Shown here one piece after another: positions 59,507 to 62,007 of a stretch of 62,007 bases of DNA. The stretch's first letter is position 1. Each line of letters begins with the position of its first letter. The translations under genes were made by a program, and so were the position numbers. This DNA is from Rhodanobacteraceae bacterium (GTDB lineage Bacteria; Acidobacteriota; Terriglobia; Terriglobales; Acidobacteriaceae). The stretch spans positions 1 to 62,007 of the forward strand of contig JANXWZ010000232.1 of NCBI GenBank assembly GCA_025350865.1. Direction: 5' to 3'. The notes under the pieces were generated by a model. The model made no database searches and had not been told where the DNA came from. It worked only from the letters and a program-made list of their open reading frames with translations.

Positions 59507-62007
59507 ATGCCACTTGACCTCACATCGTTTGCCATCAAATGGCAACAGACCCAACTGACGGAGAAGTCTGCCTATCAGCAGCATTTCCGCGACCTCTGCG
59601 AGGCACTCGGCGTACCCCATCCCACAGAAGAAGACATTGTAGGGACCAACTACACCTTCGAAAAGCACGTCACCAAGGTGGGCGGAGGCTCCGGCTTTGC
59701 CGACGTCTGGAAGCGCGACGCCTTTGCGTGGGAGTACAAGCTGCCCGGTGGGGACCTGAACAAGGCTTACAAGCAGCTAAACGAGTACCACGAAGACCTC
59801 GAAAATCCGCCACTGCTTATCGTCTGCGACTTCAAGCGTTTCGAGGTCCACACCAAGTTCGACAGCCAGCGCTCCCGCGTCTACAAGTTCGACCTTGAAG
59901 AACTCCGCAAGAACCAGCCTGTCCCCACCTCTGCCGTCCTCCCGCAAGACGTTCTCCGTTATGTGTTCGGCGACCGCAACATGCTCCGCCCGGAGGCCGT
60001 CACCGAGCGCGTTACGCGCGACGCCGCAACCGACCTCCTCAAGCTCGCCCAGCAACTGGAGCTCGAACGCGCCACCAGCCCCACCCCGCACACCAAGGAA
60101 GAGATCGCGCACTTCCTTATCCGCATCGTCTTCTGCCTCTTTGCGGATTCCATCGGCCTTATCCCAAACAATGTCTTCCGCAAACTCGTTGACGCGAGCC
60201 ACCGGTCCCGCGTCATGTTCAACACGCAATTGCCGGAGCTGTTCAAGGCGATGAGCAACGACGGCGTCTTTTTTGGCGCGGACATCATCCCCTGGTTCAA
60301 TGGCGGCCTCTTCAACGGCACCGCCACCATCGAGCTCAATAACGCCGATTGCGACATCCTCCGCAAGGCCGCCAGGCATGACTGGTCGCAGATCGAACCA
60401 TCCATCTTCGGCACACTCTTCGAGCGGTCCCTCGATGCCGCCAAGCGCTCCATGATCGGCGCACACTACACCTCGCCCGACGATATCCTCCTGCTCGTCG
60501 AGCCTGTCGTCATGACGCCGCTCCGCCGCGAGTGGGCAGCAACGCAAACGGCCATAGAGGAGGCGCTGTCAGCGGAAGAAGGCCAGCCCCAAACCCAGCG
60601 CCCGACGCGCAATCTCCGCGCCAACCGTCCCGCCAACAAGCTGCTCACAACATGGGCTGAGAGTCTGAGCAAGGTCCGCATCCTCGACCCCGCCTGCGGC
60701 TCCGGCAATTTCCTGTACATCGCCATGAAGCAGTTGCTTGACCTATGGGAAGAAGCCCGCACCTTCGGCCTCAAGCGCGGCCTGCTCCTTCCGGTAGAAT
60801 CCATGCCGACCCCCGCGCAGCTTTACGGCATCGAGATCGACTTCTACGCGCACGAGATCGCCTCTGCCGTGGTTTGGATCGGCCTGCTCCAGTGGAAGCG
60901 AGACCATAGCTACAACGACCAGCCCAAGCCCGTCCTCCACAAGCTCGACAACATCGAGCACGAGAATGCAATTTTGCGTTTTAACGAAGAAGCAAAATCG
61001 AAAGAGTGGCCAAAGGGTCATCCTAGCGAGCCTGAATGGGAAGAAGTCGACTACATCGTTGGCAATCCCCCCTTTCTGGGGGGAAATCGTGTGCGCCAAA
61101 AGTTGGGTGACGCAGACATGGACGCAATTCACTATCTTTACGAAAATCGCGTCCCGGCCGGGGCGGATTTAGTGACTTATTGGTTTGAGCGAGCACGAAC
61201 CGAGATCAAAGCTCATCATCGAACGAGGGTAGGCCTCATCGCCACGCAGGCAATAAGGGGCGGAGTTAACAGGCGTGTACTAGACCGGATCAAAGAAAGT
61301 GGAGACATATTCCTAGCTTGGAGCGACCGCGAGTGGAGGCTTGAAAACGCCGTGGTGCATGTATCAATTGTGGCTTTTGACTCCGGGGAAGAATCAGCGA
61401 GGCTTCTTAATGGAGAAGCGGTCGAAAGTATTAATGCTGATCTGACTAGCCTGCTTGACGTTACAAAGGCTCTTCGTTTGGCTGAAAACCGGAACCTTTG
61501 TCTTCGGGCATTGGAGAAGGGTGGACCGTTTGATATCAGCGACCATGTGGCTCAGCGTCTGCTTCGGCTTCCGGTCAACGTGAATGGGCGACATAATTCA
61601 GACGTACTTCGTAGGTTTTTGAATGCTATCGACATAACCGAACGAGATAGACAGGCATGGTTGATCGATTTCTTCGGAATGACCAGCGAGCAAGCCGCAC
61701 AATATGAGGCCCCATTCCAGCTACTTAAGAAAAACATTGCTGATGAGAGGCTCGCAGCGGAGAGACCGGAGGACTCCGCCAAGCCCAGACAGAATTGGTG
61801 GCTACACCGTCGCAACGCGGCTGATTTGCGGGTAGCGGTAGCCGGGCTGAACCGTTTCATTGTTACGATTGGTCACGGAAAGCACCGAATATTCTCTTGG
61901 CTTCCTGCGGGAAGTATCCCAAGTAACGCCTTATACGCCTTCGCTCGTTCCGATGATTATTTCTTTGGGGTCCTTCATTCTATTACCCACGAGCGATGGA
62001 CTCGTGC
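59507..62007 (+). CDS. MmeI-like type IIG/IIL restriction-modification enzyme (3' end outside window)
   Basis: A single chain that should both methylate and cut DNA. The frame from ATG 59507 is open to the window end (833 codons; MmeI is about 919 residues). The N-terminal nuclease region FADVWKRDAFAWEYKLPGGD gives a D66-E76-x-K78 catalytic site, as in MmeI (D70, E80, K82). A helical linker follows, then the adenine methyltransferase with motif I DPACGSGNF at about 393 and motif IV NPPF at 520-523. The target-recognition domain would follow, from about residue 640. Codons are GC-rich up to about 60960, then clearly AT-richer. There is no separate specificity or nuclease gene nearby. Confidence 0.9.
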   Translation, partial: MPLDLTSFAIKWQQTQLTEKSAYQQHFRDLCEALGVPHPTEEDIVGTNYTFEKHVTKVGGGSGFADVWKRDAFAWEYKLPGGDLNKAYKQLNEYHEDLENPPLLIVCDFKRFEVHTKFDSQRSRVYKFDLEELRKNQPVPTSAVLPQDVLRYVFGDRNMLRPEAVTERVTRDAATDLLKLAQQLELERATSPTPHTKEEIAHFLIRIVFCLFADSIGLIPNNVFRKLVDASHRSRVMFNTQLPELFKAMSNDGVFFGADIIPWFNGGLFNGTATIELNNADCDILRKAARHDWSQIEPSIFGTLFERSLDAAKRSMIGAHYTSPDDILLLVEPVVMTPLRREWAATQTAIEEALSAEEGQPQTQRPTRNLRANRPANKLLTTWAESLSKVRILDPACGSGNFLYIAMKQLLDLWEEARTFGLKRGLLLPVESMPTPAQLYGIEIDFYAHEIASAVVWIGLLQWKRDHSYNDQPKPVLHKLDNIEHENAILRFNEEAKSKEWPKGHPSEPEWEEVDYIVGNPPFLGGNRVRQKLGDADMDAIHYLYENRVPAGADLVTYWFERARTEIKAHHRTRVGLIATQAIRGGVNRRVLDRIKESGDIFLAWSDREWRLENAVVHVSIVAFDSGEESARLLNGEAVESINADLTSLLDVTKALRLAENRNLCLRALEKGGPFDISDHVAQRLLRLPVNVNGRHNSDVLRRFLNAIDITERDRQAWLIDFFGMTSEQAAQYEAPFQLLKKNIADERLAAERPEDSAKPRQNWWLHRRNAADLRVAVAGLNRFIVTIGHGKHRIFSWLPAGSIPSNALYAFARSDDYFFGVLHSITHERWTR

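Follow-up and report, generated by a model that had tools for sequence, protein, structure and literature searches.

The gene at the end of contig C142 from a soil bacterium changes abruptly in base composition in the middle of its reading frame, which raises the question of whether its two parts share one history or whether the downstream part, and with it the DNA target of the encoded restriction-modification enzyme, came from another source. The window referred to throughout is the whole stretch of DNA analysed, i.e., this contig at its full length of 62007 bases; the gene extends from position 59507 to the contig end (Table 1).

Gene and Domain Layout

The reading frame (59507–62005) is open at the contig end and provides 833 residues; the window protein lacks approximately 130 C-terminal residues, and the contig stops before the contact loop that precedes the conserved motif FETFPFP. 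The protein presented Pfam matches to MmeI_N, MmeI_hel, and MmeI_Mtase as well as a PADLOC match to REase_MTase_IIG (E = 2.8e-215), which outscored both DISARM DrmMI (1.2e-53) and BREX PglX (1.9e-7). A PD-(D/E)XK nuclease with the D-X9-EXK pattern of the Type IIL/MmeI family is present at the N-terminus, where D66...E76-Y-K78 corresponds to D70...E80-M-K82 of MmeI (the alignment to MmeI was made with the protein of Granulicella sp. S190), and, as in the MmeI family, one chain combines a helical spacer and a gamma-class methyltransferase with motif I and motif IV (NPPF). The recognition and C-terminal profiles are not reached in the cut window protein. The S190 relative (G029; record NZ_LMUD01000031.1 carries the same gene) encodes a complete enzyme of 968 residues, which matched MmeI_TRD above the cut-off (E = 6.4e-7) and MmeI_C below the cut-off (6e-4). 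Judged by its domains, the product of the window gene is an MmeI-type single-chain restriction-modification enzyme. Typical of the Type IIL/MmeI family are also host protection through methylation of a single strand and cleavage some 20 bases away. A search with the last 149 residues of the S190 enzyme found no match to the missing 3′ end at E ≤ 10 in the 246 contigs of the window genome's assembly, an empty answer that alone shows little. The contig ends at 62007, just past the conserved ARSDDYFFGVLHS stretch (61943–61981) and near a sub-cassette border; together with the missing tail, this might be a sign of mixed alleles in the sample.

Table 1. Features of the window gene, with positions in the 62007-base window.
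Feature	Position	Strand	Basis
MmeI-type (Type IIL/IIG) restriction-modification gene, truncated at its 3′ end by the contig border	59507..62007	+	ORF; PADLOC; Pfam
N-terminal nuclease domain, Pfam MmeI_N, residues 6–185	59522..60061	+	Pfam E = 2.7e-15
Helical spacer, Pfam MmeI_hel, residues 199–269	60101..60313	+	Pfam
Methyltransferase motif I DPACGSGNF, residues 394–402, in the retained part	60686..60712	+	Sequence
Junction: close similarity to the relative stops after codon 483, and GC3 switches after codon 486	60955..60964	+	
Low-GC3 part, very probably of different descent: linker, motif IV, remaining methyltransferase, most of recognition domain	60965..62007	+	
Catalytic motif IV NPPFLGG, residues 520–526; commonest 5′ exchange anchor in relatives	61064..61084	+	Sequence, pair fits
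Conserved ARSDDYFFGVLHS, residues 813–825; some relatives' sub-cassette exchanges end or begin here	61943..61981	+	

Composition Step in the Window Gene and Its Homologues

GC3 falls from 0.81 to 0.50 at a change-point located after codon 486 (support 482–488), with a log-likelihood gain of 44.0 as compared to a maximum of 12.1 across 1000 permutations. Over 44 other genes of the window, which are non-overlapping ORFs picked mechanically, mean GC3 was 0.76 (SD 0.06), and each of the 37 blocks of 348 codons taken from the longer genes had a GC3 of at least 0.66; two short genes were low throughout (170 aa at 0.57 and 268 aa at 0.59). The preliminary description had placed the switch at about position 60960, residue 485, between motifs I and IV, and had reported aga, agg, ata, and tta codons to be commoner downstream. 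All of this agrees with our measurements, which put the switch at 60955–60964 and the motifs within one residue of the positions given there, and which found the four codons at 2 of 483 positions before and 16 of 350 after the change (Fisher p = 4.5e-5).

The same description took the drop in GC3 as a possible mark of exchange, one that would lose its force if close homologues shared it. They do: GC3 declines from 0.78 to 0.55 in one of the two close homologues and from 0.72 to 0.53 in the other, and most of the family behaves likewise. When 398 genomes of the family were searched (E ≤ 1e-30), 56 contained matches; 30 genes were read from the returned loci, and 29 were retained after L060 was dropped as identical to L059, with second copies, fragments, and remoter kin left out. 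In 27 of these 29 genes, GC3 was lower in the cassette, i.e., the internal segment whose borders are described below, than in the upstream part (means of 0.73 upstream, 0.60 in the cassette, and 0.69 in the tail). Because the drop is family-wide, GC3 alone neither dates nor proves the exchange in the window gene. L059 and L060, from two genera (G197 and G294), have identical aligned proteins and the same separated N-terminal piece, which points to recent transfer or contamination.

Plasmid and viral homologues presented the same pattern, with cassette GC3 below upstream GC3 in 21 of 23, and the drop persisted where the upstream part is itself A/T-rich (0.33 to 0.25, 0.37 to 0.29, 0.42 to 0.31, and 0.43 to 0.33). 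Five further genes joined the pooled composition set, in which 53 of 56 genes (one identical copy counted) showed the drop. By the printed values, the tail was higher in GC3 than the cassette in 15 of the 23 plasmid and viral homologues, equal in one, and lower in seven; this set includes some near-duplicates, and several members align poorly in the cassette (16–29% identity). With tails mixed and the set imperfect, a drop confined to the cassette, which is shown for the family, is less sure outside it. One member, L109, adjoins a DISARM drmA gene and does not strictly count as an MmeI enzyme; another, L105 from a Synechococcus elongatus plasmid, presents an extreme step (GC3 of 0.62 upstream, 0.22 in the cassette, and 0.54 in the tail).

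Relaxed codon choice at variable residues was ruled out as a cause, since at columns with a conservation of at least 0.9, GC3 was 0.595 in the cassette as compared to 0.737 in the upstream part and 0.782 in the tail. The amino-acid-normalised, conservation-matched difference in GC3 was positive in 27 of 29 family genes; the drop thus holds at invariant codons in the family and belongs to the DNA segment, not to the variable residues. A common pool of intermediate composition is likewise unsupported, as cassettes lie below upstream parts even where the latter are A/T-rich.

Import of A/T-rich DNA followed by slow amelioration fits the composition data best. A less probable, though still plausible, explanation is that the low GC3 of the cassette arises in place, e.g., because a cassette too divergent to recombine would not be exposed to GC-biased gene conversion, a hypothesis that follows Lassalle et al. 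(PMC4450053, as far as consulted) and that is compatible with exchange. It would account for a drop found in 27/29 family genes and 21/23 plasmid and viral homologues, even at low upstream GC3, and for the drop of 0.19 that L059 and L060 still show despite being identical copies with a fully shared cassette. On the other hand, co-inherited cassettes drop less, which is what one would expect if imported DNA ameliorates: over the 27 genes for which a near relative of the backbone was available (L059/L060 omitted), the mean drop was 0.056 for seven genes with a co-inherited cassette (identity of at least 75%, a cut-off chosen post hoc) and 0.165 for the other 20 (Mann–Whitney p = 0.003; few lineages). 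With L059/L060 included, the rank correlation over 29 genes was −0.36 (p = 0.054).

Divergence from the Closest Relatives

Of the 62 genomes available for the genus, three carry close copies of the gene (E ≤ 1e-60): the window genome, S190, and G011. The G011 copy (L003:1492-3875) is decaying, with approximately the first 170 codons gone and the frame broken in the recognition part.

Between the window and S190, protein identity was 93.3% at residues 1–483 and 45.8% downstream; DNA identity fell from 86.8% to 52.3%, with a break after residue 483 in the two-segment fit (support 482–483), no more than three codons from the GC3 change-point. The break is sharp in the two-segment fit only; in a three-segment fit, support for the 5′ break was wide (381–480). 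Over the whole parts, pS rose from 0.46 to 0.78 (saturated) and pN from 0.035 to 0.405, and between the adjacent 40-codon bins 441–480 and 481–520, pS rose from 0.52 to 0.88 and pN from 0.011 to 0.24; pS is uneven between bins, reaching 0.71 upstream at 81–120 and being 0.60–0.65 in two bins downstream at 641–720. As synonymous sites are saturated, fast protein evolution alone does not account for the step. We therefore consider it very probable that recombination, crossing over at codons 483–486, joined the backbone of the window gene to a downstream segment donated by a diverged allele.

No donor for the downstream part was found above 55% identity among 397 genomes of the order (E ≤ 1e-50), plasmids, and viral contigs; the best candidates reached 55% in the order, 45.5% among the plasmid matches listed, and 49% in viral contigs. 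An 8-residue linker insert, present among the 20 sequences compared only in the window protein, S190, G011, and G310, is kept in the window protein, suggesting that the donor probably belonged to the same subfamily of backbones rather than being far foreign.

The proximity of the contig end, approximately 1.05 kb past the junction, and an assembly of 246 contigs without a match to the expected tail might suggest that the junction is an assembly chimera of two alleles. This is improbable, as the genome contains no second homologue (E ≤ 0.001) from which a chimera could be built, the frame stays open, and mosaics of this kind turn up in other assemblies as well, one partner being from a single-contig genome (G178, L041).

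Family Trees and Mosaics

In quick trees, the upstream part (residues 1–480) placed the three genus members in one clade (support 100), whereas the downstream part (S190 residues 523–838) split the trio and grouped the window gene with L042 of another genus (SH-aLRT 99). Over the 29 genes, the upstream tree required 14 changes of genus label, a number that none of 200 shuffles matched, while the downstream tree required 20, with 77 of 200 shuffles as low. AU tests rejected the window + L042 clade (7e-58) and a six-gene downstream clade (4e-68) on upstream data, and the upstream clade of L042, L052, and L058 on downstream data (8e-5); downstream clades of the window gene with S190 (p = 0.47) or with S190 and G011 (p = 0.21) were not rejected, and the branches concerned are long. 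The case for the window gene thus rests on synonymous divergence and the sharp break, since AU does not reject its own clade downstream; the case for the family rests on trees too, since AU rejects clades across it.

Mosaics include a reciprocal one between L047 and L052 (identity of 57.9% upstream and 71.6% downstream) and the pair L042/L058, with a dS of 0.22 upstream, saturation in the middle, and 0.36 in the tail. These data also bear on an explanation without exchange, in which the recognition part diverged in place under rapid diversifying selection. Recognition domains do evolve fast, and AU does not reject the clades of the window gene with its genus relatives downstream, but selection on protein should not saturate synonymous sites between adjacent bins, and neither the return of L042/L058 to low dS in the tail nor reciprocal mosaics and AU-rejected clades would be expected; we regard this explanation as very unlikely. 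It is about equally hard to believe that the upstream backbone, not the cassette, is the new arrival, as the location of the S190 copy between capsid/protease and integrase genes means that whole genes can move, but the upstream GC3 of 0.81 resembles that of the other window genes and the upstream part clusters by genus, neither of which is true downstream.

An exchange with crossover near codon 483 remains the preferred reading, and the family as a whole presents the pattern of recognition-domain exchange, with a conserved backbone, discordant recognition segments, and junctions at conserved motifs. The earlier suggestion that the downstream part comes from another source is upheld by the identity drop, the synonymous jump, the mosaics, and the discordant trees, but not by composition, which fails as proof; separate phylogenies do give different trees for the two halves across the family, but for the window gene's relatives a shared downstream clade is not rejected (AU). 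The extent of the exchange was misjudged at both ends: a retained "nuclease half" is too narrow, as the spacer and the AdoMet-binding motif I were retained too, and replacement of everything downstream is too wide, as relatives carry a conserved part after FETFPFP.

Cassette Borders and Base Contacts

Breaks were fitted for 21 pairs, of which 14 proved to be mosaic while conserving the upstream part; since members recur between pairs, the pairs are not independent. Numbered on the S190 enzyme, the 5′ break fell at 516–524, in motif IV NPPFLGG, in 8 of the 14 mosaic pairs, at 480–482 in two pairs, both involving the window gene, and at 532, 557, 562, and 629 in the remaining four. Among the 11 mosaic pairs with both tails, the 3′ break fell at 850–858, in FETFPFP, in nine and at 809–811 in two. 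The conserved C-terminus kept by relatives indicates that the exchanged unit is an internal cassette; across the family it is reassorted among backbones most often from NPPFLGG to FETFPFP, although in some cases the exchanged stretch stops, or starts, at the ARDDDYFFGVLHS region. Profiles of finer resolution reveal smaller exchanges: L047 and L066 are mostly 85–100% identical up to approximately residue 780 (75% at 521–540), 41–70% identical at 781–860, and differ again after 900; L037 and L040 differ mainly at approximately 681–800.

In MmeI, motif IV occupies residues 481–484 and the recognition domain 621–825, and base contacts are reported to run from K487, S488, and K489 in the methyltransferase to R810 in the recognition domain (PMC4833311, in the part consulted). 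By hand-counted alignment, MmeI motif IV corresponds to S190 residues 516–519, and the ends of the contact range to 522–524 and approximately 845, with the stretch between them assumed to be colinear; NPPFLGG and FETFPFP therefore enclose the contacts reported in that part of the source within a few residues. The 809–811 break sets the contacts for base pairs 1–3 apart from E806, R808, and R810 and divides those for base pairs 4 and 5. A loop before FETFPFP was present in 52 of 56 sequences, counted by eye with one identical copy included, as an EDR-type (13), REVESGFRY-like (13), GxG(N/D)D-like (21), KSD-like (4), or other (1) form. The EDR and GxGND forms occur in the family and in plasmid genes of other phyla (e.g., Deinococcus, Trichlorobacter, and rhizobia), and the REVESGFRY form is confined to the family and two viral contigs. 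L042 and L058 have their last contact loop in common.

We tentatively raise the possibility that MmeI-type enzymes across phyla share a pool of two exchangeable segments between three anchors (NPPFLGG, ARDDDYFFGVLHS, and FETFPFP), one long and one short. The long segment would carry the contacts for base pairs 1–3 and some of those for base pairs 4 and 5; the short one, occurring as a small number of recurring types (EDR, REVESGFRY, and GVGND), would carry the others, through base pair 6. The pool would be A/T-shifted in its codons relative to any host.

Neighbourhood and Mobility

Upstream of the window gene lie genes that we take to be mutS2, arsR, and an SRPBCC protein gene. The genes read as arsR and SRPBCC were paired in all 12 loci examined, the window's included, and 32 of 62 genomes had a match; no insertion boundary at this site could be fixed in the 12 loci. 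The S190 copy (L029:3872-10177) is flanked by capsid and prohead protease genes on one side and a tyrosine integrase gene on the other, as in a prophage or a capsid-carrying satellite with a defence gene, and on account of this location whole restriction-modification genes may travel on phage-like elements. A remnant in another genus (G304, L070:1-700), located in the vicinity of genes for a cytosine-5 methyltransferase and a gyrase A-like protein, retains 84 N-terminal residues that are 87% identical to the S190 enzyme.

Proposed Mechanism and Significance

The window gene has its backbone (nuclease, spacer, and AdoMet-binding part) in common with two other species of the genus. In the proposed mechanism, as expected for the enzyme family, one recognition module would serve cleavage and methylation alike. 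Homologous recombination at short conserved motifs would replace this module, and the exchange would alter the DNA target of both activities at once; a change of target is suggested because the exchanged segment holds residues aligning with the reported MmeI base contacts. Such exchanges may be favoured by phage-imposed selection. Repeated replacement at the same few places is probably, as far as sequence comparison can tell, how MmeI-type enzymes gain new DNA targets. In a single-chain enzyme, a change in the shared recognition module would alter cutting and protection together, so that exchange would be a safe one-step route to a new target.

Lying on either side of the aligned base contacts, the natural junctions suggest cut points for working chimaeras and could permit piecewise assignment of recognition motifs from sequence. 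In addition, a drop in GC3 within one gene would help to separate A/T-rich import from lack of GC-biased conversion at sub-gene scale.

Comparison with Known Systems

In the portions of open-licence full texts consulted, neither recurrent cassette junctions nor a step in composition was described for MmeI-type enzymes, which is not a claim of absence from print. In the window enzyme, as in MmeI (PDB 5hr4), the nuclease is followed by the spacer and by a gamma-class methyltransferase bearing motifs I and IV, and a recognition domain and a C-terminal domain are predicted to come next, as they do in MmeI (PMC4833311), but sequence identity between the two is low, and the consulted part of that source describes specificity change through substitution of contact residues, not cassette exchange. 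TaqII and TaqIII of Thermus (Type IIC/IIG) are 93.4% identical, differ mostly in the putative recognition domain, and have different targets (PMC5587805); they belong to another enzyme family, however, and the part of that report consulted does not deal with cassette borders or composition. In Helicobacter pylori, recombination reassorts the recognition sequences of Type I, Type IIG (with a separate S subunit), and Type III systems (PMC3983042 and PMC3077401, each in the part consulted), and in Type III systems it occurs at weakly similar DNA encoding conserved methyltransferase motifs (PMC3983042). The exchange proposed here resembles these cases but differs in that it involves a single-chain MmeI-type enzyme, has motif IV, ARDDDYFFGVLHS, and FETFPFP as anchors, and takes place among genera of one family.
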